Part shown: one piece after another, positions 4,201 to 49,826 of the stretch
How the letters are laid out: each line of letters opens with the position of its first letter
How positions within the stretch are numbered: the stretch's first letter is position 1
Source: Lepisosteus oculatus
Taxonomy: Eukaryota > Chordata > Actinopteri > Semionotiformes > Lepisosteidae
Direction of reading: 5' to 3'
DNA length: 64,000 nucleotides
NCBI RefSeq assembly: GCF_040954835.1
Contig: NC_090709.1
Coordinates: 41,052,490-41,116,489, forward strand
The notes under the pieces: generated by a model
Seen by the model: only the letters and a program-made list of their open reading frames with translations
What the model was told of the DNA's origin: nothing
Databases searched by the model: none
Translations under genes and position numbers: made by a program

Positions 4201-7200
4201 AGCTGGGGTCTGAGAGACCACCCCCCCCACCCCAACTACTCATGACACGCCCCCTCCCACGAGCTAAAACCCACTCCCACTACACAGGACACGCCCCTCC
4301 CACAGAGCCTAAACACACCCCCACCACCCAGGACACGCCCCTCCCACAGAGCCTAAACCCACCCCCACCACACAGGACACGCCCCTCCCACAGAGCCTAA
4401 ACCCACCCCCACCACACAGGACACGCCCCTCCCACAGAGCCTAAACCCACCCCCACCACCCAGGACACGCCACTCCCACAGAGCCTAAACACACCCCCAC
4501 CCCACAGGACACGCCCCTCCCACAGAGCCTAAACACACCCCCACCACACAAGACACGCCCCTCCCACAGAACCTAAACACACCCCCTCCACCCAGGACAC
4601 GCCCCTCCCACAGAGCCTAAACACACCCCCACCACACAAGACACGCCCCTCCCACGAGCCTAAACACACCCCCACCACCCAGGACACGCCCCTCCCACAG
4701 AGCCTAAACACACCCCCACCACACAAGACACGCCCCTCCCACAGAGCCTAAACACACCCCCACCACACAAGACACGCCCCTCCCACAGAGCCTAAACACA
4801 CCCCCACCACACAAGACACGCCCCTCCCACAGAGCCTAAACACACCCCCTCCACCCAGGACACGCCCCCCGTGAGCCTAAACCCACCCCCACCACACAGG
4901 ACACGCCCCTCCCACAGAGCCTAAACACACCCCCTCCACCCAGGACACGCCCCTCCCACAGAGCCTAAACACACCCCCACCACACAGGACACGCCCCTCC
5001 CACGAGCCTAAACACACCCCCACCACACAGGACACGCCCCTCCCACGAGCCTAAACACACCCCCACCACACAGGACACGCCCCTCCCACAGAGCCTAAAC
5101 ACACCCCCACCACACATGACACACCCCTCCCACAGAGCCTAAACACACCCCCACCACACAAGACACGCCCCTCCCACGAGCCTAAACACACCCCCACCAC
5201 CCAGGACACGCCCCTCCCACAGAGCCTAAACACACCCCCACCACACAAGACACGCCCTTCCCACAGAGCCTAAACACACCCCCTCCACACAGGACACGCC
5301 CCTCCCACGAGCCTAAACACACCCCCTCCACACAGGACACGCCCCTCCCACAGAGCCTAAACACACCCCCTCCACCCAGGACACGCTCCTCCCCCTAGCC
5401 TAAACACACCCCCTCCACCCAGGACACGCCCCTCCCACTAACCTAATGCCCTGACATTTCAGGACACACCTGTCTCTCAAACGCCCCCTAAGGCCACCAG
5501 GACACACCCCGTTTGCGAGGGGACACGCCCCATCACATGCTGGGACCCCTACCCCTCCCTCACACACCAGAGCACACTGTGAGCTCCAGGAGTGTCTGAC
5601 AGCGCCCCTCCCCCCCCCGCAGGCAGGAGACGAACCCGCGCTCACCAGGGTGTCGGCTCGGGGGTAGGGGGCCACGCAGACGCTGGGCGGCTGGGGGGCG
5701 AGGGGGGGCAGCCGGTGCCACAGCTCCTCGGAGAGGTAGGGCATGAAGGGAGACAGGAGGGCCAGGCCCTGTCGGACACACTGGTACAGCACCTGCCTGG
5801 CACCCAGACTGGCGTCGTCTGACTGGGGCAACACGGGCTTGATGCACTCCTGAGGGGCGACAGAGGGAGAGGGGTTCACACAGACACCCTGACTGGACAC
5901 TCCAGTACATGAACACTGCACTGAGAGAGAGAGGGGTTCACACACACACACTGACTGGACACTCCAGTACATGAACACTGCACTGAGAGAGAGAGGGGTT
6001 CATACACACACACTGACTGGACACTCCAGGACACGAACACTGCACTGAGAGAGAGAGGGGTTCACACAGACACACTGACTGGACACTCCAGGACACGAAC
6101 ACTGCACTGAGAGAGAGAGGGGTTCATACACACACACTGACTGGACACTCCAGGACACGAACACTGCACTGAGAGAGAGAGGGGTTCACACAGACACCCT
6201 GACTGGACACTCCAGGACATGAACACTGCACTGAGAGAGAGAGGGGTTCACACACACACCCTGACTGGACACTCCAGGACATGAACACTGCACTGAGAGA
6301 GAGAGGGGTTCACACAGACACACTGACTGGACACTCCAGTACATGAACACTGCACTGAGAGAGAGAGGGTTAATACAGACACACTGACTGGACACTCCAG
6401 TACATGAACACTGCACTGAGAGAGAGAGGGGTTCATACACACACACTGACTGGACACTCCAGTACATGAACACTGCACTGAGAGAGAGAGGGGTTCACAC
6501 AGACACACTGACTGGACACTCCAGTACATGAAGGTTATTTCAGTACCAGGTAGACGTCGCACAGGGAGTGCAGCCAGTAGCTGTGGACGGCCGCGGTGAC
6601 CGCGTGCAGGTCGAACCCCTGGAAGCCCCGGTCACACTGCTGGGCCGTCGTGTGCAGCCGGCCACACACCCAGCGGTCAATACTGCTGACCGGACGGACC
6701 TGGGCCGACGGGGACAGGGAGAGGGGTCAAGAGGGCGATCCGGGCGAGCGGCCAGCCTGTCGAGGCGGTCGGTCGGGGTCAGCCGGCGGGCACCTCTCTC
6801 GGGTCCAGGGGGGTGAAGCCCTCTCCCAGGGCTCCCAGTGTGAACCTGACGGCGTTCCAGATCTTGTTGCAGAAGTGCCTGGTGCTGAGGAGCTGGGACA
6901 CGGACAGACTGATGTCGTCCCCTGGGGAGGAGGGAGAGCGGGGGAGAGAGAGAGAGAGAGAGAGCAGGGTCAAGACAGACTGCGGGCGGCGCAACACCCG
7001 GCACAGAGAGGAGCACACTGCAACACCCGGCACAAACAGGAGCACACTCCAACACCCGGCACAAACTGGGGGGAATCCAAAACCCGGCACAAACTGGAGC
7101 ACACTCCAACACCCAGCCACCCGGCACAGAGAGGAGCACACTCCAACACCCGGCACAAACTGGAGCAGAGTCCAACACCCGGCACAAACTGGAGCACACT

Positions 7201-10200
7201 CCAACACACAGCCACCCGGCACAGAGAGGAGCACACTCCAACACACAGCCACCCGGCACAGAGAGGAGCACACTCCAACACCCGGCACAAACTGGAGCAC
7301 ACTCCAACACCCGGCACAAACTGGAGCACACTCCAACACACAGCCACCCGGCACAGAGAGGAGCACACTCCAACACCCGGCACAAACAGGAGCACACTCC
7401 AACACCCAGCCACCCGGCACAGAGAGGAGCACACTCCAACACCCGGCACAAACTGGAGCAGAGTCCAACACACAGCCACCCGGCACAGAGAGGAGCACAC
7501 TCCAACACCCGGCACAAACAGGAGCACACTCCAACACCCGGCACAAACAGGAGCACACTCCAACACCCGGCACAAACTGGAGCACACTCCAACACACAGC
7601 ACAAACTGGAGCACACTCCAACACACAGCACAAACTGGAGCACACTCCAACACCCAGCCACCCGGCACAAACAGGAGCACACTCCAACACCCGGCACAGA
7701 GAGGAGCACACTCCAACACCCGGCACAAACTGGAGCACACTCCAACACCCGGCACAAACTGGAGCACACTCCAACACCCAGCCACCCGGCACAGAGAGGA
7801 GCACACTCCAACACCCAGCCACCCGGCACAGAGAGGAGCACACTCCAACACCCAGCACAAACAGGAGCACACTCCAACACCCAGCACAAACTGGAGCAGA
7901 GTCCAACACCCAGCACAAACAGGAGCACACTCCAACACCCGGCACAAACAGGAGCACACTCCAACACCCGACACAAACAGGAGCACACTCCAACACCCAG
8001 CCACCCGGCACAAACAGGAGCACACTCCAACACCCGGCACAAACAGGAGCACACTCCAACACCCAGCCACCCGGCACAAACAGGAGCACACCCCAACACC
8101 CAGCCACCCGGCACAAACAGGAGCACACCCCAACACCCGGCACAAACAGGAGCACACCCCAACACCCGGCACAAACTGGAGCACACTCCAACACACAGCC
8201 ACCCGGCACAAACAGGAGCACACTCCAACACCCGGCACAAACAGGAGCACACTCCAACACCCGACACAAACAGGAGCACACTCCAACACCCAGCCACCCG
8301 GCACAAACTGGAGCACACTCCAACACCCGGCACAAACTGGAGCACACTCCAACACCCAGCCACCCGGCACAGAGAGGAGCACACTCCCAACACCCGGCAC
8401 AAACAGGAGCAGAGTCCAACACCCGGCACAAACAGGAGCACACTCCAACACACAGCCACCCGGCACAGAGAGGAGCACACTCCAACACCCGGCACAAACA
8501 GGAGCACACTCCAACACCCGGCACAAACAGGAGCACACTCCAACACCCAGCCACCCGGCACAAACAGGAGCACACCCCAACACCCGGCACAAACAGGAGC
8601 ACACCCCAACACCCGGCACAAACAGGAGCACACTCCAACACCCGACACAAACAGGAGCACACTCCAACACACAGCCACCCGGCACAAACTGGAGCACACT
8701 CCAACACCCGGCACAAACTGGAGCACACTCCAACACCCAGCCACCCGGCACAGAGAGGAGCACACTCCAACACCCGGCACAAACAGGAGCACACTCCAAC
8801 ACCCGGCACAAACAGGAGCACACTCCAACACACAGCCACCCGGCACAGAGAGGAGCACACTCCAACACCCGGCACAAACAGGAGCACACTCCAACACCCG
8901 GCACAAACTGGAGCACACTCCAACACCCAGCCACCCGGCACAGAGAGGAGCACACTCCAACACCCAGCCACCCGGCACAGAGAGGAGCACACTCCAACAC
9001 CCGACACAAACAGGAGCACACTCCAACACCCAGCACAAACTGAAGCAGAGTCCAACACCCGACACAAACAGGAGCACACTCCAACACCAAGCCACCCGGC
9101 ACAAACTGGAGCACACTCCAACACCCGGCACAAACAGGAGCACACTCCAACACCCGGCACAAACTGGAGCACACTCCAACACCCGGCACAAACTGGAGCA
9201 CACTCCAACACCCAGCACCCGCTGCGCTGGGGGGTCGGCCGAGTCTCTCACCCTGGGCTTTGTAGGAACAGAGGGCGAACCTCAGGGCGTCGGTGCCACA
9301 CTCGGGGATCCCGCCGGGGAAATCGCGCTTCTGGGGGTGCAGAGAGAGAGGGAGAGAGCGAGGTGAGGAACTGGAACCTGTCTGTCCGTCGGCGTTTGGA
9401 TGTATTCAGGCAGCTTTCCCTCCAAGCCACTGGGCTGCTTGTTCCCCACCCCCACCCCCCTTCTGTGTACAGCAGAGCGTCCTGTCCTGACTGGAGGAGC
9501 TCACCCAGCTTGTTCCCCACCCCCACCCCCCTCTGTGTACAGAAGAGCCTCCTTTCCTGACTGGAGGAGCTCACCCAGCTGTGTCTGGAGAGGAGCCAGG
9601 GTATCGGCTTCAACCACAGGGCTGGGCGGCTTGTTCCCCACCCCCACCGCCCTCTGTGTACAGAAGAGCCTCCTCAGAGCTCTCAGGGATAGTGTGCACG
9701 CGGAGGAAGAGGGCGAGAGACAGACAGCTTCCTGGAGATGCAGGGGGACACAGAGGGACACAGGGGGGATGCAGAGGGACACAGGAGTCGGGAGGACAGA
9801 GAGAGACAGAGAGCGAGACAGAGGCGCCTGACCTGTCCCTCCACAGCCACCTGAACTTCCCTGGGGTCCAGGTTGCCCTCGGTCACCTTCTGGTGTAGCT
9901 CCTGTGTGAGGAGACAGAGGGGGTGAGTCCCAGCATGCTGACGCACTGGCGCACTGGGGGATGTACTGTCTGACACTCTGACTCACTGACACACTAACAC
10001 AGCGATTCACTGTCTGACACACTGACTCACTGACACACTAACACAGCGATTCACTGTCTGACACACTGACTCACTGACACACTAACACAGCGATTCACTG
10101 TCTGACACACTGACACAGCGATACACTGTCTGACACTCTGACTCACTGACACACTAACACAGCGATTCACTGTCTGACACACTGACACAGCGATTCACTG

Positions 10201-13200
10201 TCTGACACACTGACTCACTGACACACTAACACAGCGATTCACTGTCTGACACACTGACACAGCGATTCACTGTCTGACACACTGACTCACTGACACACTA
10301 ACACAGCGATTCACTGTCTGACACACTGACACAGCGATACACTGTCTGACACTCTGACTCACTGACACACTAACACAGCGATTCACTGTCTGACACACTG
10401 ACACAGCGATTCACTGTCTGACACACTGACTCACTGACACACTAACACAGAGATTCACTGTCTGACACACGCTTGGCTTACACACTGACACGCTGGGCTC
10501 ACACACTGACACGCTGGGCTCACACACTGACACACTGACACCCTGGGCTCACACACTGACACCCTGGGCTCACACACTGACACCCTGGGCTCACACACTG
10601 ACACCCTGGGCTCACACACTGACACGCTGGGCTCACACACTGACACCCTGGGCTCACACACTGACACGCTGGGCTCACACACTGACACCCTGGGCTCACA
10701 CACTGACACCCTGGCCACCCTGGGCTCACACACTGACACCCTGGGCTCACACACTGACACCCTGGGCTCACACACTGACACCCTGGGCTCACACACTGAC
10801 ACGCTGGGCTCACACACTGACACGCTGGGCTCACACACTGACACGCTGGGCTCACACACTGACACGCTGGGCTCACACACTGACACCCTGGCCACGCTGG
10901 GCTCACACACTGACACGCTGGGCTCACACACTGACACGCTGACACACTGACACACTGACACAGGGCAGAGGAGAGCAGCGTGTCCGGTCCCAGACCTGCA
11001 GGGAGACCCCGGAGATGACGTCCAGGGGGTCGATGACGTTTCCCAGAGACTTGCTCATCTTGCGGCCGTGGGCGTCTCTCACCATGGAGTGAAGGGAGAC
11101 CTGGAGCCGGGCGCGAGAGAGGGAGTCAGGGCCCGACCATCGGACGCACCAGGGGCCGGCCCCACGGAGCTGAGCTGCCTCCAGTCACGCCTGCCCAGAG
11201 CCTGCCTCTGTCTCGTACCCCTGTTACTGCGGTAAGCAGGACCTTATACTCGCTGTCTGTGCACAAGAGCACAGGACTGGTCTCGGAGTCAGAGTATTAG
11301 CCCATTTGGTAGAGCTCACCCAGCTGTGTCTGGAGAGAAGCCGGGGTATCGGCTTCAACCACAGGGCTGGGCAGCTTGTTCCCCACCCCCACCCCCCTCT
11401 GTGTACAGTAGAGCCTCCTGTCCTGACTGGAGGAGCTCACCCAGCTGTGTCTGGAGAGAAGCCAGGGTATCGGCTTCAACCACAGGGCTGGGCAGCTTGT
11501 TCCCCACCCCCACCCCCCTCTGCGTACAGAAGAGCCCCCTGTCCTGACTGGAGGAGCTCACCCAGCTGTGTCTGGAGAGGAGCCAGGGTATCGGCTTCAA
11601 CCACAGGGCTGGGCGGCTTGTTCCCCACCCCCACCCCCACCCCCCTCTGTGTACAGAAGAGCCTCCTGTCCTGACTAGAGGAGCTCACCCAGCTGCGTCT
11701 GGAGAGAAGCCAGGGTATCGGCTTCAACCACACGGCTGGGCGGCTTGTTCCCCACCCCCGCCACTCTCTGTGTACAGTAGAGCCTCCTGTCCTTACTGGA
11801 GGAGCTCACCCAGCTGTGTCTGGAGAGGAGCCAGGGTATCGGCTTCAACCACAGGGCTGGGCAGCTTGTTCCCCACCCCCACCCCCCTCTGTGTACAGTA
11901 GAGCCTCCTGTCCTGACTGGAGGAGCTCACCCAGCTGTGTCTGGAGAGAAGCCAGGGTATCGGCTTCAACCACAGGGCTGGGCAGCTTGTTCCCCACCCC
12001 CACCCCCCTCTGTGTACAGTAGAGCCTCCTGTCCTGACTGGAGGAGCTCACCCAGCTGTGTCTGGAGAGAAGCCGGGGTATCGGCTTCAACCACACGGCT
12101 GGGCGGCTTGTTCCCCACCCCCGCCACTCTCTGTGTACAGTAGAGCCTCCTGTCCTGACTGGAGGAGATCACCCAGCTGTCTCCCCCAGGTGGGGCCGCT
12201 GGTGCAGAATGATTACTGTGTGCACTGTGTGGGGAGCGCAGTGGGACCCATCCTATATGTAAGGTGCTTTGAGATCCTTTGGGATAAAAGTCGCTATATC
12301 ACTGAAACAACTTATATCCCGCTTTCCTGGTGACGAGCCCCTGCTCACCTGCCTGAAGGGTAGCTCTCCCGTCAGCTCCCTTCCCAGCATCACCATGCGC
12401 GCCACCCAGAAGAAGATGAGGTCACTTCCGGTCTCCAGGAGGCTGTTGGGATAGAACTCCCGCAGGTCTGGGGTCTGCGGACAGGAAGTGATGTCAGTGA
12501 GGTCCTGGCAGGAAACGCACCCCTCAGGCCTTTTTGGATGTGCTACTCGCAGTCACATCTGTAACACCTAGACTCATACCCATAACAGCCATGACCAGAC
12601 CCACAGTCACGATAACCACACCCACAGTCACACCTAAAACACATACAGCCACGCCCATGCTAGACATGACCACACCCACAATCACAATAACCACACCCAC
12701 AAGCCCATATATAACCACACCCATAGTCACACGCATAACACATAGCCACACCCATACTAGACATGACTACACCCACAGACAGTATAACCACACCCCCAGT
12801 CCATTTATAACCACACCCACAGTCACACCCATAACACATATAGCCACACCCATACTAGCCATGACCACACCCACAACCAGTATAACCACACCCCATCCCA
12901 TATTTAACCACACCCATAACACATATAACCACACCCATAGTAGCCATGACCACACCCACAATCACTATAACCACACCCACAAGCCCATCTATACCCACAC
13001 CCAGTCACACCCATAACACATATAGCCACAACCACAATCACTATCACCACACCCACAGTCACACCCATATAGCCACACCCACAATCACTATAATCACACC
13101 CACAGTCACACCCATAACATGCATAGCCACACCCACAATCACTATAACCACACCCACAGTCACACATATAGCCACACCCACAATCACTATAACTACACCC

Positions 13201-16200
13201 AGTCACACCCATAACATATATAGCCACACCCACAGTCACTGTAACCACACCCACAGTCACACATATAGCCACACCCACGCTCACTATAACCACACCCACA
13301 GTCACACATATAGCCACACCCACGCTCACTATAACCACACCCACAGTCACACCCATATAGCCACACCCACAATCACTGTAACCACACCCACAGTCACACA
13401 TATAGCCACACCCACAATCACTATAACCACACCCACAGTCACACCCATATAGCCACACCCACAATCACAATAACCACACCCACAGTCACACCCATATAGC
13501 CACACCCACAATCACTATAACCACACCCACAGTCACACCCATATAGCCACACCCACAATCACTATAACCACACCCACAGTCACACCCATAACATATAGCC
13601 ACACCCACAGTCACTATAACCACACCCACAGTCACACCCATAACACATATAGCCACACCCACACACCTGCTCGGGCCACCCCAGCATGGCGAAAGGAAAC
13701 AGCGCCGAGGAGAACCACGTGTCCAGGACATCAGGATCTGAAGGCAACAGAGTGACAGGAGAGACGTTTCACTCGCAGTGTTGAGGGTTAGAGGTTCCCT
13801 CAGGCTGGAGTGACCTCAGCTCCAGATCGCTGGGACTCCTGAAATGCCCTGCCTTTTTTAATTATTCACTAATACTGTAGAGACACTCAGTCTGATCACC
13901 TCCAGCTTCACCCTCACACTCCTCCTCCTCCTCAGATCTGTACAGGACTGGAGAGACACTCAGTCTGATCACCTCCAGCCTCACCCTCACACTCCTCCTC
14001 CTCAGATCTGTACAGGACTGGAGAGACACTCAGTCTGATCACCTCCAGCTTCACCCTCACACTCCTCCTCCTCAGATCTGTACAGGACTGGAGAGACACT
14101 CAGTCTGATCACCTCCAGCTTCACCCTCACACTCCTCCTCCTCAGATCTGTACAGGACTGTAGAGACACTCAGTCTGATCACCTCCAGCTTCACCCTCAC
14201 ACTCCTCCTCCTCCTCAGATCTGTACAGGACTGGAGAGACACTCAGTCTGATCGCCTCCAGCTTCACCCTCACACTCCTCCTCCTCCTCAGATCTGTACA
14301 GGACTGGAGAGACACTCAGTCTGATCACCTCCAGCTTCACCCTCACACTCCTCCTCCTCCTCAGATCTGTACAGGACTGGAGAGACACTCAGTCTGATCG
14401 CCTCCAGCTTCACCCTCACACTCCTCCTCACAGTTGATTATTATTCAGGGCAAGCACCAGGGGTTCTAAGGGGGTCTTGCCTTGAGTTAGGGTGATCTCT
14501 TCCTCGGCGATCCCGAACTTCTGGGCTGCTGACCTTCTGACCTCTTCTGCGCTCCGCCCACACATCCACAGGGCGTCGCTGCCCTCCTGGTCAGACACGA
14601 GTTTTGGGGCACACTTGTCAGTCCAGGGGCGCCCACACAGTGACGCGGGTTGGGGGACAGACTGACAGACAGATGGACAGTTGGGGGGGTTGGACACGCA
14701 GAAGGACAGAGCAGGGGGTCAGACACTCAGAAGGACAGAGCAGGTGGACAGACACTCAGAAGGACAGAGCAGGTGGACAGACACTCAGAAGGACAGAGCA
14801 GGGGGTCAGACACTCAGAAGGACAGAGCAGGGGGTCAGACACAGAGGGACAGAGCAGGTGGACAGACACTCAAAAGGACAGAGCAGGTGGACAGACACTC
14901 AGAAGGACAGAGCAGGGGGTCAGACACTCAGAAGGACAGAGCAGGGGGTCAGACACTCAGAAGGACAGAGCAGGGGGTCAGACACAGAGGGACAGAGCAG
15001 GTGGACAGACACTCAAAAGGACAGAGCAGGGGGTCAGACACTCAGAAGGACAGAGCAGGTGGACAGACACAGAGGGACAGATGGGGGGGGGGGGTGGACA
15101 CACAGAGGGACAGAGCAGGGGGTCAGACAGATCAGGCAGGCAGGCAAACGCGGACACACCTCCTTCTGGTCATCTGACCCCGGGAAAGCCACCTGATAGG
15201 CTGGAATCTGGTGGCCCCACCACAGCTGCCTGGAGACGCACCAATCACTGAGAAGACAGGGGGGGAGAGGGGGGCGGGGCCGACTGATGAAGAAGCCATG
15301 TGACCCCAGGCGGAGAACCTGCGTCGGCGCTTCGTCCTCGTCAGCGAGCGAGCGAACGGTTCTGCTCCCAGCGCAGACTGACCATCGGCCCCCCGTCTCT
15401 GCTCACCTGACGCCGGACAGCCAGGTCCTCCAGGTCTTCTTGTGGAAGCCGGGAGTGATGTCCAGCTCCCCGTCCTCCACCGCCTGGGACAGACCGGACA
15501 GCACGCAAGATGGGCTCACCGACACAGTGACTACACGTGCGGACTGAGCACACACAATCTGCCATTTTATCAGCCTGTATCTCTGTCAGTCTCCCCTGTG
15601 TGGATCTCTGTCAGTCTGTCTGTCAGTCTCACCTGTGTGGATCTCTGTCAGTCTGACCTGTGTGGATCTCTGTCAGTCTGTCTGTCAGTCTCCCCTGTGT
15701 GGATCTCTGTCAGTCTCACCTGTGTGGATCTCTGTCAGTCTGTCTGTCAGTCTCCCCTGTGTGGATCTCTGTCAGTCTGTCTGTCAGTCTCACCTGTGTG
15801 GATCTCTGTCAGTCTCCCCTGTGTGGATCTCTGTCAGTCTGTCTGTCAGTCTCCCCTGTGTGGATCTCTGTCAGTCTGTCTGTCAGTCTCACCTGTGTGG
15901 ATCTCTGTCAGTCTCCCCTGTGTGGATCTCTGTCAGTCTGTCTGTCAGTCTCACCTGTGTGGATCTCTGTCAGTCTGACCTGTGTGGATCTCTGTCAGTC
16001 TGTCTGTCAGTCTCCCCTGTGTGGATCTCTGTCAGTCTCACCTGTGTGGATCTCTGTCAGTCTGTCTGTCAGTCTCCCCTGTGTGGATCTCTGTCAGTCT
16101 GTCTGTCAGTCTCACCTGTGTGGATCTCTGTCAGTCTCCCCTGTGTGGATCTCTGTCAGTCTGTCTGTCAGTCTCCCCTGTGTGGATCTCTGTCAGTCTC

Positions 16201-30400: not shown

Positions 30401-33400
30401 GCACCCTCCTCCTGGAACAGCAACACACAGACACAATAACACACTGAGAACACACTGAGAACATCCTGTAGCTCTCCACCCTCCTCCTGGAACAGCAACA
30501 CACAGACACAATAACACACTGAGAACACACTGTAGCCCTGCACCCTCCTCCTGGAGCAGCAACACACAGACACACTGACACACTGAGAACACACTGAGAA
30601 CATCCTGTAGCCCTGCACCCTCCTCCTGGAACAGCAACACACAGACACAATAACACACTGAGAACACACTGAGAACACCCTGCATCCTCCTCCTGCAACA
30701 GCAACACACAGACACAATAACACACTGAGAACACACTGAGAACATCCTGTAGCCCTCCACCCTCCTCCTGGAACAGCAACACACAGACACAATAACACAC
30801 TGAGAACACACTGAGAACACCCTGCACCCTCCTCCTGGAGCAGCAACACACAGACACAATAACACACTGAGAACACACTGTAGCCCTGCACCCTCCTCCT
30901 GGAGCAGCAACACACTGACACACTGAGAACACACTGAGAACATCCTGTAGCCCTGCACCCTCCTCCTGGAGCAGCAACACACTGACACACAGGCACACTG
31001 ACACACAGACACACTGACACACAGACACAGTGACACAGTGACACAGTGACACAGTGACACAGTGACACAGTGACACGCCGACACGCCGACACGCCGACCC
31101 GCCGACCCGCCGACACACAGACACACAGACACACAGACACACAGACCCACTGACCCACAGACCCACAGACCCACAGACCCACTCCAATCTGGCCCTGATC
31201 TGAGCCCTGCCTCACCAGCGGGCCAGGGCGTCCTCGAGGGCCACCGTGAGGGCGTGGCCCAGGTGCAGGGAGCCCGTGACGTTGGGCGGGGGGATGCACA
31301 TGGAGAACGACCGGCCCAGCGCCTGGGGCAGCCGGCCCTGCAGGGGGAGAGCAGAGCAGAGCCATCAGCAGCCACGACGGCGACATACACAGTATGAGAT
31401 AATCACAACTACAGCAGCAGCAGCCACAGTGACACTGTATATAGAAATAACAATACTGTATATAGAAATCATCATAATACCAACTACAGCAGCAGCAGCC
31501 ACAGTGATACTGTATATATAAATAACAATACTGTATATAGAAATCATCATAATAACCACAACTACAGCAGCAGCAACCACAGTGATACTGTATATATAAA
31601 TAACAATACTGTATATAGAAATCATCATAATACCAACTACAGCGGCAGCAACCACAGTGATACTGTATATATAAATAACAATACTGTATATAGAAATCAT
31701 CATAATACCAACTACAGCAGCAGCAACCACAGTGATACTGTATATATATAAATAATAATAACAATACTGTATATATAAATAATAATAATAACTACAGCAG
31801 CAGCAACCACAGTGATACTGTATATATAAATAACAATACTGTATATAGAAATCATCATAATACCAACTACAGCAGCAACCCTGATAACACTGTATATATA
31901 TATAAATAATAATAATACTGTATATATATAAATAATAATAACAACTACAGCAGCAATAATAATAATACTGTATATATAATAATAACTACAGCAGCAATAA
32001 TAATAAAAACAGCAGCAAGAATAATAATAATAATAATAATAATAGTAAGAACAATATTAAAAACGACAGCAGCAATAATAATAGAAATAAGTAACAGTAA
32101 TAATAATGCCCTACCACACGCTACTGTAAACAAGCAGCGAGAGGAAGAGGAAACTTCATTTCCACTCACACCCTTCCTCGTCCACCCCTCTCTGAATCCC
32201 GCCCCTCCTCCTCCTCACCTGGTACTCCGGGGTGAAGAAGCCCTCTCTCTCCCACCACTGGTACCAGCAGGCCTCCACGTACTGGGGGCTGTAGGCCGGG
32301 GGCAGGGGGCCGGAGGTGTCTGAGAGAGGGGCAGAGGGGCCCGTCATCAGAGAGCACACAGGGACACAGGGACACGGTAGACTCTCACACACTCTCTTAC
32401 ACACACACTCTCACTCTCTCACGCTGTCACACACGCGGTCACACACACGGTCACACACACGGTCACACACACGGTCACACACTCACATGCTCACTCGCTG
32501 TCACACACTCTCAATCTCACACCCTCACACTGTCACACACACCCTCACTCTCTCACGCTGTCACACACACTCAATCTCTCACACACTCACACACACACTG
32601 TCACACACTGTCACACACTCTCAATCTCACACCCTCACACTGTCACACACACCCTCACTCTCTCACGCTGTCACACACACTCAATCTCTCACACACTCAC
32701 ACACACACTGTCACACACTCTCAATCTCACACCCTCACTCTCTCACGCTGTCACACACACCCTCACTCTCTCACGCTGTCACACACACTCAATCTCTCAC
32801 ACACTCTCACACACACTGTCACACACTGTCACACACTCTCAATCTCACACCCTCACACTGTCACACACACCCTCACTCTCTCACGCTGTCACACACACCC
32901 TCACTCTCTCACGCTGTCACACACACTCACTCTCACACACACCCTCACACTGTCACACACACCCTCACACTCTCACACACTCACTCTCACACACTCGCTC
33001 ACACACTGTCACACACTGTCACACACACCCTCACTCTCTCTCTCTCTCAGCTCCGAGGCGCTGCCTCACCCTTCCTCTCCCCGGGCGGCGTGGGCGCGGT
33101 GTAGACCATCCTCTCCTTCTCCTTCCACTGCGGCCCCGACGCCCCGGCGCCCTGGCAGGAGACAGCACCGCCCAGAGGCAGGATCAGAACCGCTCCCGGA
33201 CGACAGTGGACTCCTGGCCCGGCAGAGCGCCACACACAGGACCTCACAACCTGCGGGGCGACTCCAGCACCTCCAGAGGGACGCACCCCACGGGGCGAGA
33301 GCGTACAGGGCTCAGGGCAGGAGGCGCTTCTGTACACAGAGGGGGGTGGGGGTGGGGAACAAGCTGCCCAGCCCTGTGGTTGAAGCCGATACCCTGGCTT

Positions 33401-34298
33401 CTCTCCAGACACAGCTGGGTGAGCTCCTCCAGTCAGGACAGGGGGCTCTTCTGTACACAGAGGGGGGTGGGGGTGGGGAACAAGCTGCCCAGCCCTGTGG
33501 TTGAGGCCGATACCCTGGCTCCTCTCCAGACACAGCTGGGTGAGCTCCTCCAGTCAGGACAGGAGGCTCTTCTGTACACAGAGGGGGGTGGGGGTGGGGA
33601 ACAAGCTGCCCAGCCCTGTGGTTGAAGCCGATACCCTGGCTTCTCTCCAGACACAGCTGGGTGAGCTCCTCCAGTCAGGACAGGAGGCTCTACTGTACAC
33701 AGAGGGTGGCGGGGGTGGGGAACAAGCTGCCCAGCCCTGTGGTTGAAGCCGATACCCTGGCTTCTCTCCAGACACAGCTGGGTGAGCTCCTCCAGTCAGG
33801 ACAGGAGGCTCTACTGTACACAGAGGGTGGCGGGGGTGGGGAACAAGCTGTCCAGCCCTGTTGTTGAAGCCGATACCCTGGCTTCTCTCCAGACACAGCT
33901 GGGTGAGCTCCTCCAGTCAGGACAGGAGGCTCTACTGTACACAGAGGGGGGTGGGGGTGGGGAACAAGCTGCCCAGCCCTGTGGTTGAAGCCGATACCCT
34001 GGCTTCTCTCAGGACACAGCTGGGTGAGCTCCTCCAGTCATGACAGGAGGCTCTTCTGTACACAGAGAGGGGCGGAGGTGGGGAACAAGACAGCCCCGCC
34101 CCTCCCTCCCTGGCTGGCTGGCTGGCTCACCGTGGCGCAGTCTGCCAGGACGGCCCGCTCCCTCTCCCGCCTCCTCTTCTGCTTCTCCGCCCGGCCTCGG
34201 TCCGGGGCGGGGGCGGGCGCGGCCCGGGAGGTCGGCAGGTCGTGGGCCGGCCGCCCCCACAGCGCCCCCAGGGGGACGCGGCGAGCTGGGCGCCACAT
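760..34298 (-). CDS. vars2: Mitochondrial valyl-tRNA synthetase, 29 coding exons
   Basis: Class Ia synthetase that charges mitochondrial tRNA-Val with valine in the matrix. Exons, 5' to 3' on minus: 34298-34131, 33151-33070, 32319-32219, 31337-31216, 27681-27615, 26602-26505, 26234-26153, 24426-24307, 23890-23782, 22596-22508, 22331-22250, 21849-21719, 20397-20294, 20170-20089, 15483-15407, 15247-15160, 14613-14481, 13737-13667, 12474-12349, 11100-10996, 9901-9833, 9330-9252, 6921-6794, 6699-6547, 5849-5646, 3936-3825, 2702-2521, 2439-2290, 837-760. They sum to 3192 nt (1063 residues, equal to human VARS2 as I recall it), and every junction keeps phase. Motifs seen: an Arg-rich acidic-poor N-terminus ([17 protein letters not shown]) like a mitochondrial presequence; [15 protein letters not shown] with the HIGH signature (exon 4); [10 protein letters not shown] (exon 5); [10 protein letters not shown] of the editing domain (exon 10); [17 protein letters not shown] (exon 16); KMSKS (exon 20); anticodon-binding domain in exons 22-25; an Arg/Glu-rich coiled-coil C-terminus (exons 28-29). 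The presequence and the exon 3 match favour VARS2 over cytosolic VARS1. Intron 17 uses a GC donor. The exon 17 acceptor has a poor pyrimidine tract and is the least certain junction. Confidence 0.95.
895..2117. repeat. GT-rich minisatellite in VARS2 intron 28
   Basis: About 25 copies of a ~45-50 bp unit built on GTGATGGACTGGTGTCCTG, CCAGGGTGTGTGAG and a variable (GT)n. The core matches the 3' part of a dispersed fish element seen more fully at 58.4-59.2 kb, so the array looks like an expansion inside that element. Confidence 0.93.
2694..3700. repeat. 56-bp minisatellite spanning the exon 27 acceptor
   Basis: About 18 copies of a 56 bp unit in VARS2 intron 26. On the sense (minus) strand each unit reads through a CCTGTTGCAG-type acceptor into TGTGGGNGCTGTG, which is the beginning of exon 27. 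The array is contiguous with the real splice site at 2702/2703. Confidence 0.93.
3990..4222 (+). mobile_element. tRNA-derived SINE copy
   Basis: Aligns along its length with the element at 37.48-37.75 kb. A pol III B-box-like GGTTCGTATCC is at 4044-4054, followed by the shared GGCAGAGGAATCCTACTC segment, TATAAAATGGCCGACCCTG and TCATGGAGAGCCAGCTGGGG. It lies in VARS2 intron 25, antisense to the gene. Confidence 0.75.
4230..5455. repeat. ~43-bp minisatellite in VARS2 intron 25
   Basis: About 28 copies of a unit with CCCACAGAGCCTAAACACAC and GGACACGCCCCTC as landmarks, with variants lacking the CAGA. It starts where the SINE ends, suggesting the two may be connected. No coding content. Confidence 0.92.
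5865..6530 (-). repeat. 62-bp minisatellite filling VARS2 intron 24
   Basis: About 11 copies of a 62 bp unit occupy nearly the whole intron between exon 24 (ends 6547) and exon 25 (starts 5849). On the sense strand a unit reads TTCATGTACTGGAGTGTCC, AGTCAGTGTGTCTGTGTG, AACCCCTCTCTCTCTCAG. The last partial unit merges into the pyrimidine tract of the exon 25 acceptor. The same unit occurs in PPP1R11 intron 1. Confidence 0.93.
6930..9235. repeat. 2.2-kb minisatellite in VARS2 intron 22
   Basis: About 70 copies of a ~31 bp unit with landmarks GGAGCACACTCCAACACCC and GGCACAAACAGG (variants AAACTGG and AGAGAGG), plus a longer variant with an extra CAGCCACCCG. Long ORFs of 740-915 codons in several frames on both strands arise because stop codons are absent from the unit; they are not genes. 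A short (GA)n lies at 6940-6962. Confidence 0.93.
9415..9690. repeat. 121-bp repeat, partial copies, VARS2 intron 21
   Basis: Two to three incomplete copies of the 121 bp repeat, in the opposite orientation to the copy at 1-190. The remainder of the intron to exon 21 is GA-rich and unremarkable. Confidence 0.85.
9950..10465. repeat. ~44-bp tandem repeat, VARS2 intron 20, part A
   Basis: About a dozen units with GATTCACTGTCTGACACACTG and CACACTAACACAGC. It passes directly into the 21-bp array downstream. Confidence 0.9.
10466..10965. repeat. 21-bp tandem repeat, VARS2 intron 20, part B
   Basis: About 24 copies of a 21 bp unit (CTGGGCTCACACACTGACAC plus one base) with two short CTGGCCAC interruptions. 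Because 21 is a multiple of three, it yields spurious Cys/Val/Ser-rich ORFs on the minus strand. Confidence 0.92.
11295..12180. repeat. 121-bp tandem array, about 7 copies, VARS2 intron 19
   Basis: Seven head-to-tail copies of the 121 bp repeat, same orientation as at 52.75-53.80 kb. The 170 bp between the array and exon 19 contains GGATAAAAGTCGCTATAT-like sequence but nothing identifiable. Confidence 0.93.
12540..13665. repeat. CCACACCCACA minisatellite, VARS2 intron 18
   Basis: Interleaved higher-order repeat of ACCACACCCACAGTCACACC, CATATAGCCACACCCAC and AATCACTATA segments. On the sense strand the array begins within a few bases of the exon 18 donor at 13667/13666. Confidence 0.9.
13860..14432. 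repeat. ~70-bp tandem repeat, VARS2 intron 17
   Basis: About 8 copies with TCAGATCTGTACAGGACTGG, AGAGACACTCAGTCTGATC and CCTCCAGCTTCACCCTCAC, and a variable CTC run. It lies between the GC donor of exon 17 and exon 18. Confidence 0.9.
14690..15125. repeat. 29-bp tandem repeat, VARS2 intron 16
   Basis: About 14 copies with AAGGACAGAGCAGG and GGTCAGACACTCAG (variant TGGACAGACACTCA). It gives spurious Gln/Arg/Asp-rich ORFs in all plus frames. Confidence 0.92.
15585..20089. repeat. 4.5-kb minisatellite starting at the exon 14 donor, VARS2 intron 14
   Basis: On the order of 150 copies of a 25 bp unit, some carrying a 12 bp insertion (TGTCTGTCAGTC on plus). On the sense (minus) strand the first unit starts at the first base of the intron: GTGAGGCTGACAGAG then ATCCACACAG, repeated. 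Every unit boundary therefore resembles ACAG|GTGAG, with variants CAG|GTCAG and CAG|GGGAG. The many apparent ORFs are artefacts of the repeat. Confidence 0.95.
20515..21715. repeat. 94-bp satellite-like array, VARS2 intron 12
   Basis: About 13 copies of a 94 bp unit with GACATATTTACAGCTCGCTG, GAAGGCGTTATGGGGGTGAT and CACTGGGGTACAGC. On the sense strand the array begins about 7 bases after the exon 12 donor. Confidence 0.93.
21851..22130. repeat. 280-bp homopurine tract upstream of exon 12
   Basis: Uninterrupted GA/GGA/GAAG purine run on plus, hence a pyrimidine tract on the sense strand. It leads directly into the exon 12 acceptor at 21849/21850. It encodes only low-complexity Glu/Gly, Leu/Pro or Ser/Phe ORFs. 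Confidence 0.93.
22670..23745. repeat. ~60-70-bp tandem repeat, VARS2 intron 9
   Basis: About 16 copies with ACAGGACAGGAGACACAGTG, GATCACAGAGAATCCCTC and AGTCATAAACACACAC, with variable GA runs. Confidence 0.9.
24580..26050. repeat. ~62/66-bp tandem repeat, VARS2 intron 7
   Basis: About 24 copies with GTGTGATCTCCTGTCCCAGC, CTGAGGAACAGACAGTGAG and CTCTCAATAATAATAATACA; a four-base GACA deletion separates two unit lengths. Confidence 0.92.
26300..26385. repeat. Isolated partial 121-bp repeat, VARS2 intron 6
   Basis: A single diverged partial copy, from GGAGGCTCTTCTGTACACAG to GAAACCGATAC. It shows that the unit exists outside tandem arrays. Confidence 0.75.
26625..27522. repeat. CA-rich minisatellite, VARS2 intron 5
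   Basis: Repeats of ACTCACCTGACACAGACACA with (CA)n expansions. On the sense strand units contain TCAGGTGAGTGC, a strong donor-like sequence, within an intron whose real donor is CAG|GTCAGT. Confidence 0.88.
27690..30985. repeat. 3.3-kb minisatellite carrying the exon 5 acceptor, VARS2 intron 4
   Basis: About 45 copies of a unit of roughly 55-85 bp. On the sense (minus) strand each has GTTGCTGTTCCAG (the exon 5 acceptor and pyrimidine tract) followed by GAGGAGGNTGCAGGGCTAC, which is the first part of exon 5. Several copies match the exon exactly over about 20 nt; others differ at one or two positions or have a shortened exon-like part. The real exon 5 is 27681-27615, directly after the last copy. 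Confidence 0.95.
31400..32110. repeat. ~76-bp AT-rich repeat and AAT microsatellite, VARS2 intron 3
   Basis: About 6 copies with ACTACAGCAGCAGCAACCAC, ACAATACTGTATATAGAAAT and CATCATAATACC, degrading into (AAT)n towards exon 3. Confidence 0.9.
32385..33045. repeat. CACACTCTCA-type repeat, VARS2 intron 2
   Basis: Low-complexity array of ACACACCCTCACTCTCTCAC, GCTGTCACACACAC and TCAATCTCTCACACA. The plus-strand His/Ser/Thr-rich ORF over it is spurious. Confidence 0.9.
33310..34085. repeat. 121-bp tandem array, about 6.5 copies, VARS2 intron 1
   Basis: Six head-to-tail copies in the orientation of the 1-190 copy and opposite to 11.3 and 52.8 kb. It fills most of the intron between the first two coding exons. 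Confidence 0.93.
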
Positions 34299-47820: not shown

Positions 47821-49755
47821 ATGGCGGAGGCGGCCGGCACGTCGAGAGAGACGATCACGGAGACGGTGCAGACCAGCACGCCGCCCCCTCCCCAGCAGGT
47901 ACCGCAGTCGCCGCTAACGAGCGTGTCGAAAATAATGATCATAACGACAGCAATCGCGCTGGAAATGACAACACGGCGCTGCGTCATTGACGCCGCGCCA
48001 CCTGATCACCTCCTGAGCTGCCTGGAGATCTTGTTGACAGACGGAAAACACCATATTTATTCTCTCTCTCTCTCACACACACACACGTCATTCTCATTTT
48101 TAAAACCTGTTTCCCCCCACCACCACCACCAATCCATTACAGTGTTCATGTACTGGAGTGTCCAGTCAGTGTGTGTGTGTGTATGAACCCCTCTCTCTCT
48201 CAGTGCAGTGTTCATGTACTGGAGTGTCCAGTCAGTGTGTGTGTGTGTATGAACCCCTCTCTCTCTCAGTGCAGTGTTCATGTGCTGGAGTGTCCAGTCA
48301 GTGTGTCTGTATGAACCCCTCTCTCTCTCTCAGTGCAGTGTTCATGTACTGGAGTGTCCAGTCAGTGTGTGTGTATGAACCCCTCTCTCTCTCAGTGCAG
48401 TGTTCATGTACTGGAGTGTCCAGTCAGTGTGTGTGTGTATGAACCCCTCTCTCTCTCAGTGCAGTGTTCATGTACTGGAGTGTCCAGTCAGTGTGTCTGT
48501 GTGAACCCCTCTCTCTCTCTCAGTGCAGTGTTCATGTACTGGAGTGTCCAGTCAGTGTGTCTGTATGAACCCCTCTCTCTCTCAGTGCAGTGTTCATGTC
48601 CTGGAGTGTCCAGTCAGTGTGTCTGTATGAACCCCTCTCTCTCTCAGTGCAGTGTTCATGTACTGGAGTGTCCAGTCAGTGTGTCTGTGTGAACCCCTCT
48701 CTCTCTCAGTGCAGTGTTCATGTACTGGAGTGTCCAGTCAGTGTGTCTGTATGAACCCCTCTCTCTCTCTCAGTGCAGTGTTCATGTACTGGAGTGTCCA
48801 GTCAGTGTGTCTGTATGAACCCCTCTCTCTCTCATTCTGCAGGAGAGCCGCAGTCTGACAATCAAGCTGAGGAAGAGGAAGACGGAGAAGAAGGTGGAGT
48901 TTTCCAGCGACACTGTGGACAATGAGCATCTGGGCCGAAGGTCTTCCAAATGTGAGTCGACTGTCACTCAGTTCTGTGTTCCTGTTCCTTCCTCATCAAA
49001 GTAGCAGAAGCGTAGCACCTAGACTCATTCAACAGTTAAGGGTCAATGCTGTGCTTATTAGAGAATTCAGCTGATTGATTTGAGTATCTAGTCCAGGCTT
49101 GTCCCGAGAGAAGGCGTCAGCTTGTTCCACACTCCCACCGCCCTTTGTGTAAAGAAACACCTCCTGTGGCCAGATTGAACACTTGAGTCTCGGGGTTCGT
49201 GTTATGTCATTTAGAAAGTTGAATATACGTCTAAAGGGGCTCTTCTGTACACAGACGGTTGTGGGGGTGGGGAACAAGCTGCCCAGCCCTGTGGTTGAAG
49301 CCGATACCCCAGCTTCTCTCTCCAGACATAGCTGGGTGAGCTCCTCCAGTCAGGACAGGAGGCTCTACTGTACACAGAGGGTGGTGGGGGTGGGGAACAA
49401 GCTGCCCAGCCCTGTGGTTGAAGCCGATACCCCGGCTTCTCTCTCCAGACACAGCTGGGTGAGCTCCTCCAGTCAGGACAGGGGGCTCTACTGTACACAG
49501 AGGATGGTGGGGGTGGGAACAAGCTGCCCAGCCCTGTGGTTGAAGCCGATACCCCGGCTCCTCTCCCAGACGCAGCTGGGTGAGCTCCTCCAGTCAGGAC
49601 AGGAGGCTCTTCTGTACGCAGAGGGTTGTGGGGGTGGGGAACAAGCTGCCCAGTCTGTGTGGTTGAAGCCGATACCCTGGCTTCTCTCCAGACACAGCTG
49701 GGTGAGCTCCTCAGATTGATGAGCTACTCCCTGCGCAAGAGAGGTGTCTGTATGA

Positions 49756-49826
<71 letters not shown>

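Follow-up and report, generated by a model that had tools for sequence, protein, structure and literature searches.

A tandem repeat of about 62 bp, which makes up most of two introns in the window (the whole stretch of 64,000 nucleotides analysed, C14:41052490-41116489 of a genome of 1,200,105,466 bp in 813 contigs), appears to be a splice-acceptor satellite that spreads between intron ends and occasionally makes introns. A probability of about 0.5 is given to this reading. The underlying pattern, in which arrays lie in sense to the gene and end in the acceptor of the next exon, is strong, is repeated in further sets of arrays and is marked in the 62-bp family; that the arrays follow such a rule of position and strand is almost certain. 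Judged from its structure and place, the unit is a portable acceptor.

Results

Repeat arrays in the VARS2 and PPP1R11 introns

The VARS2 intron lies on the minus strand at 5850-6546 (697 bp), as read directly. The original prediction had placed it at 5849-6547; the intron was correctly recognized, with bounds one base too wide on each side. Tandem Repeats Finder and direct reading identified 10.8 copies of the 62-bp unit with 95% matches at 5862-6532 (minus strand), and the array fills 671 of the 697 bp. The last partial unit, at 5850-5882 on the minus strand, includes the acceptor TGTGTGAACCCCTCTCCCTCTGTCGCCCCTCAG and runs in sense to the gene into the next exon (TGTGTGAACCCCTCTCCCTCTGTCGCCCCTCAG|GAG), which matches Pfam Anticodon_1 (3.5e-12). 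On the donor side, read as GTACTGAAATAACC at 6533-6546 (minus strand), the gap between exon and array is 14 nt.

PPP1R11 intron 1 occupies 47899-48842 on the plus strand. Its array of 11 copies, found by the same two procedures at 48140-48834 (plus strand), is likewise in sense and runs into the acceptor (TGTATGAACCCCTCTCTCTCTCATTCTGCAG|GAG). Here the last partial unit and the acceptor of exon 2 were read at 48812-48842 (plus strand), and the exon matches Pfam PPI_Ypi1 (4.4e-8). The two arrays bear out the earlier claims that both introns are largely one unit of about 62 bp, that it is sense to the gene, and that its last partial copy enters the acceptor. A further partial unit had been claimed at the acceptor of PPP1R11 intron 2. 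It is present at 49744-49826 (plus strand) as a solo copy, GTGTCTGTATGAACCCC followed by (CT)n and CAG with no array, and is a weak example, consisting of 17 bases and a long (CT)n run.

The repeat unit and its occurrence in the genome

The unit is laid out like the 3′ end of an intron, with a branch-point-like TTAAC or TGAAC, (CT)n and AG. A genome search with the unit, the check originally proposed, revealed a repeat far wider than the two genes: the 62-bp core had 18,569 matches (9064 + 9505) at up to 3 mismatches and its reversed control none. Chance likeness of two genes is ruled out by this comparison. The module TGTATTAACCCCTCTCTCTCTCAG had 3224 exact matches (control, 0), of which 2925 carry the next seven bases of the unit exactly; the other 299 continue differently and may include variants of the unit. 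With head-to-tail units of period 62 (median 56-66 over 75 arrays), the repeat falls within the range of a minisatellite (about 10-100 bp), and a single sequence family is found inside the introns of many unrelated genes. Convergence on CT tracts was also considered and is ruled out, because whole units are shared beyond the CT tract.

Strand and position of arrays relative to exons

The CT ends of arrays were read in four sets, which gave 79 readable arrays in total. Set 1 comprised the window, 20 C14 loci of 10 kb and five picked loci (C3, C4, C6, C7 and C12). Two of its 41 arrays were excluded, one being truncated at the locus border and the other a fragment of a split array; 28 of the remaining 39 ended in a sense acceptor, 5 were antisense at a donor and 6 were neither. 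Set 2 consisted of 20 places taken in listed order and chosen by the exact module, the cluster at C3:6174527 being left out and one place being already in set 1; its 18 readable arrays included 13 sense acceptors and 5 of neither kind. The 20 places of set 3 were the remaining listed C14 places, one each on C12 and C600, and two on C4; 15 of 19 readable arrays ended in a sense acceptor, one was antisense at a donor and 3 were neither. Set 4 covered six places on C4 and C7, where all three readable arrays ended in a sense acceptor.

Over all sets, in which the C14 arrays were chosen by likeness to the VARS2 array within one gene-dense region, 59 of 79 arrays run in sense into the acceptor of the following exon. 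This count includes the RING exon of L020 and L062, where the array end is near a start codon and the acceptor was assumed. The other 20 fall outside the rule: 6 are antisense at a donor and 14 neither. Sense acceptors outnumber antisense donors with p = 5e-12 (59 vs 6), a comparison in which antisense frames were read less evenly and the antisense share may be underestimated. The difference holds among database-supported exons (33 vs 2, p = 4e-8). A dispersed repeat inserted at random, with no preferred strand or place, does not fit these numbers, as had been argued from the sense placement at intron 3′ ends. The proposed tabulation of strand and acceptor distance thus gave the opposite of randomly oriented copies without enrichment at acceptors. 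Not all copies are sense; antisense copies exist, and in the six cases above it is their CT end that abuts the donor. By eye, 15 of the 28 sense arrays of set 1 start within 25 nt of the donor, and in this set the donors beside whole-intron arrays are seldom plain unit sequence.

Support for the exons and control comparisons

Peptides of 54 of the 59 sense exons were searched in Pfam; the remaining 5 are one of set 1, L049 and three of set 4. Matches at E up to 0.01 were found for 32 exons (20 in set 1, 4 in set 2 and 8 in set 3), several of them below the curated cut-off. An Elongin B exon was matched in PDB, bringing the database-supported sense exons to 33 of 59; the other 26 (21 searched, 5 not) had no database match and rest on reading by eye. 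Two of six antisense exons matched Pfam (proteasome and carnitine acyltransferase), and those read as DDR1, DAXX and ATF6B had no Pfam match. PLD-like and RGL2-like exons gave no match in the PDB search. Gene names throughout are those which we take the exons to carry; RGL2, LHX, ATF6B, PLD, ADCY and others were named by eye without a Pfam or PDB match, and the gene called ZBTB22, for which a BTB match was found, is presumably that one. In the C14 interval 34.9-41.6 Mb lie genes known from the vertebrate MHC region. An exon of class I matches Pfam MHC_I (1.1e-12), and AIF1, Vps52, Daxx, proteasome and Sushi exons accompany it. To find class I genes linked with class III genes suggests a ray-finned fish outside the teleosts.

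A codon score was trained on 30 matched exons, with the scored locus left out and the mark set at 90% of 525 random places. In the acceptor direction, 20 of 39 right ends scored above the mark, compared with 44 of 306 for other tandem arrays (p = 7e-7); in the donor direction the counts were 19 of 39 left ends and 48 of 306. On the wrong strand, 10 of 39 right and 6 of 39 left ends of the 62-bp arrays passed. Some circularity remains in these scores, the training exons coming mostly from beside 62-bp arrays. The comparison, made at the same loci, rules out a general closeness of any minisatellite to exons as sole cause.

Unit phase at the right end was concentrated in the 39 arrays of set 1 (p = 0.0024), more so in its 28 sense arrays (p = 3.5e-5), and again in the 19 arrays of set 3 (p = 6e-4). 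At the left end of set 1 arrays no concentration was seen (p = 0.21). Phase 50-61 was found at the right end of 22 of 28 sense arrays vs 3 of the 11 other set 1 arrays, which are scattered in phase (p = 0.62). An automatic test with Tandem Repeats Finder borders (34 arrays) was weak (right p = 0.02, left 0.31), its alignment having run into exons, and separately read phases were used instead. Applied to control families, it gave p = 0.026 for right ends of the 121-bp family (12 arrays) but no concentration in two 50-bp families, so that the 62-bp family is not alone in showing some concentration of phase.

Left borders were explored in 18 arrays that are not near a donor. Acceptor-like sequence was present in 7 (background 9.5%) and, at a lower score, in 8 (16%), and in 2 and 1 where the background is 5.7% and 3%. 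Such borders could be left by an array inserted directly behind an old AG, or by an old intron end that was copied in tandem.

Branch-point-like motif and acceptor of the last unit

In the 56 of 59 intron ends listed by a script, a branch-like A stands 14-74 nt from the AG end (median 20) and within 12-40 nt in 49 of the 56; the script takes the last fitting motif, so that in a few cases a less likely one was picked. The inner units of C14 arrays carry TGAAC in 643 and TTAAC in 22 of 666 cases, and those of C3 arrays TTAAC in 151 of 157. TGAAC is without the U that stands two places before the branch A in the vertebrate consensus. The last units of C14 sense arrays keep TTAA in 12 of 37 (8 of 24 in set 1, 4 of 13 in set 3), giving an odds ratio of 14 relative to inner units (p = 1.7e-8). 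Inner units thus share a consensus-breaking T-to-G change from which the last unit is often spared, as would follow if splicing depends on the last unit alone. From its sequence and position, the last, partial unit very probably serves as the acceptor of the next exon. Several antisense arrays present GTGAGAGAGAGAG, a fair donor, to the exon.

Homogenisation within chromosomes

Divergence was compared among 925 units of 75 arrays. Mean diversity within an array is 4.1%. Mean net divergence between arrays is 1.3% on the same chromosome vs 8.3% between chromosomes, a difference reached in none of 1000 label shuffles. Units are more alike within chromosomes, as in a chromosome-homogenised satellite. 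Unit length varies by place: the median is 62 in 43 of 46 C14 arrays, 56-58 in 14 of 17 C3 arrays, and 65 on C6 and 66 on C2 (one array each). Divergence had no clear relation to distance on C14 (Mantel, 95 of 1000 permutations), which counts against local exchange, since this predicts one. Exact cores at C4:1166845-10805642 and C7:231305-689956 are all on the plus strand among the matches listed, unlike the C14 cores, which are on both strands.

Age of the array introns

Exon pairs flanking seven arrays were searched within the same genome for paralogues. Four introns (VARS2, DDR1, LHX and RGL2) look old. At VARS2, the C10 paralogue is split at 56/54 (junction 55). The C27 paralogue of DDR1 is split at 55/59 (junction 58/59), and several more distant kinase loci are uninterrupted. 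At LHX, the C9 and C27 paralogues stop at 47 and 46 (junction 45), and a more distant C20 match is uninterrupted. From these positions the VARS2, DDR1 and LHX introns look older than their arrays. The RGL2 intron is probably older as well; its C9 and C27 paralogues start at 24 and 25 (junction 26), the upstream part not being found. Besides the DDR1 kinase exon of L010, further copies of it occur on C14, with at least 17 matches in all at C14:35095246-37092012, and the exon preceding it has one C14 match, both among the 150 of 221 candidates scored.

No counterpart was present for the other three introns among the paralogues found. For ZBTB22, all 29 matches outside C14 (E up to 1e-8) continue across the junction (72/73) without a break. 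A second C14 copy shares the intron and its donor side, with array sequence at either end of it; the two ZBTB22-like copies with an array intron lie at C14:38340889-38343865 and 38480473-38482015. The ZBTB22 intron has AG|GT on both sides. The RIC8 junction (46/47) is uninterrupted in 2 of 2 paralogues. Its intron on C7 (L029) is repeat throughout its 295 nt, opening with GTATG and closing with CTCCAG, and the donor too is within repeat-like sequence. At PSMB8, the junction is uninterrupted in 2 of 2 paralogues, and this case is counted as ambiguous because PSMB8 and its paralogues may differ anciently. Loss of the intron in all other ZBTB22-type loci is possible but unlikely. The ZBTB22 and RIC8 introns, almost wholly repeat, may be newly born and are candidates for intron gain. 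The four introns older than their arrays speak for conversion or insertion into existing introns, and the three without a counterpart for intron creation in some cases.

Discussion

Origin and spread of the repeat

The original prediction offered a portable 3′ splice-site module or gene conversion between intron ends, and the 59 of 79 arrays in sense at an acceptor favour these ideas, both of which are retained as mechanisms. Homology-driven exchange is favoured here; insertion of an introner-like element and selective retention of arrays are its main rivals, and more than one may hold. In the favoured reading, a splice-acceptor satellite, the unit (56-66 bp, depending on the chromosome) would reproduce the terminal portion of an intron, with branch-point-like TTAAC, (CT)n and AG. 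The array would have spread mainly among introns of one chromosome through DNA exchange starting in the homology of branch point and pyrimidine tract at one intron end, and gene conversion, template switching or re-insertion of circular array DNA could be the route. Exchange ending at no set place would leave the acceptor side fixed and the other side not. No intermediate of spread was seen among the arrays studied. Now and then an array may land in an exon and, being splice-competent, be removed as a new intron, with ZBTB22 and RIC8 as candidates. That homology drives the spread within chromosomes we put just short of even odds; that an array has made at least one new intron is an even bet. 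The fuller proposition is that a vertebrate carries a selfish satellite which replicates a 3′ splice site as its unit, spreads by being copied to the ends of introns and turns into a new spliceosomal intron on landing in an exon; it is held tentatively, with the balance of judgement against it.

Alternatively, a splice-competent array or unit may insert as an introner-like mobile element and make new introns, its copies in old introns being insertions at an exon-start AG|G. The many sense arrays of set 1 starting close to the donor (15 of 28), the junctions of ZBTB22 (29/29), RIC8 (2/2) and PSMB8 (2/2) that are intronless in the paralogues found, and the repeat-like RIC8 donor all agree with this. 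So does the exploratory excess of acceptor-like sequence left of arrays, 7 of 18 vs a 9.5% background, falling at the next score to 2 of 18 vs 5.7%. On the other hand, such an element would have to account for left ends without a fixed phase, for arrays that differ by chromosome and are clustered among the listed places, and for four of seven tested introns that look old. It is considered unlikely.

Selection, which the original prediction had not raised, could act on a minisatellite that is not aimed at introns at all, so that beside exons only arrays keeping a good acceptor (sense) or a good donor (antisense) survive. The CT and AG of the unit are usable as an acceptor and the complement, GTGAGAGAG, as a donor, and antisense arrays do abut donors in 6 of 79 cases. 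The phase lock at the right end is confined to sense arrays (22/28 vs 3/11 others), a result which selection on splice sites fits as well as an insertion mechanism does. Arrays far inside introns or in intergenic DNA should then be harmless and common, however, and just 14 of 79 were read as lying away from exons; moreover, little of this excess is shared by other array families at these loci (44 and 48 of 306 ends). A filter of this kind is quite improbable as the explanation.

That each intron tandemly duplicated its own end, the likeness being convergence on CT-rich ends, agrees with a unit length near short-intron size and with the acceptor-like sequence at some left ends, but is highly improbable, as the whole unit is common to the arrays and the net same-chromosome divergence (1.3%) is below the diversity within arrays (4.1%).

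Relation to known systems

Euchromatic satellites such as the Drosophila 1.688 family form short tandem arrays that are dispersed in gene regions and homogenised by chromosome, as seen here. We know of no splice-site function or fixed intron position for satellites of the 1.688 type, unlike the present array. With introner elements, as described by Gozashti et al. 2022 (PMC9860276), the repeat shares near-identical families carrying splice sites in introns of unrelated genes and the presence of some introns without counterpart in the paralogues found. It differs in forming tandem arrays rather than single elements, with one end fixed and with differences between chromosomes, and in that at least four of seven tested array introns look old. 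According to that paper, introners were detected in two animal groups and in no other group of animals or land plants, and vertebrates give no pattern of introner gain. Introners of Amoebophrya (PMC7789003) resemble the arrays in being repeat-rich introns in many genes, with direct repeats; they have non-canonical splice sites and hairpins, whereas the arrays here are tandem and canonical GT-AG. Intron gain by tandem genomic duplication also yields intron sequence from tandem repetition, and reportedly involves one local duplication (PMC4974935) instead of one dispersed family. The direct repeats near splice sites described in PMC11782384 are a different phenomenon from an acceptor array. Among the papers listed by a literature search, which covered few subscription journals, none reported such an acceptor repeat.

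How introns originate, and why vertebrates seem to acquire hardly any, are long-standing questions. With a family that unites branch point, pyrimidine tract and AG, that has stayed almost uniform within a chromosome and that forms whole introns absent from paralogues, vertebrate intron gain and acceptor replacement could be caught in progress. If real, a selfish satellite of the 3′ splice site would mean that a vertebrate gains introns in the manner of introners, through a tandem repeat and not a transposon. The C3 arrays, with TTAAC in nearly all inner units, offer a natural test of how the spliceosome chooses an acceptor among equal copies.

Other tandem repeats in the region

Tandem repeats make up 54% of the window (1-64000) and 53-81% of each 10-kb C14 locus (L009-L028). 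A second dispersed tandem family, with a unit of about 121 bp, forms 14 arrays in 8 of 21 sources and is present in the window at 9437-9580, 11312-12180, 33312-34101 and 49238-49712. A CT-rich family of 50 bp has six arrays, including L012:777-1647, L020:286-652 and L026:8730-9407; directly behind three of its right ends stand a pyrimidine tract, CAG and what may be an exon, and by this arrangement it may be a second acceptor satellite. At 13874-14429 of the window lies a 73-bp tandem unit containing CTCCTCCTCCTCCTCAG, which is also acceptor-like. At L024:1-1373, a shortened derivative of the 62-bp unit (about 35 bp, with GTGTGTGTGAACCCCTCTCTCTCTCAGTGCAGT) forms an array of its own.
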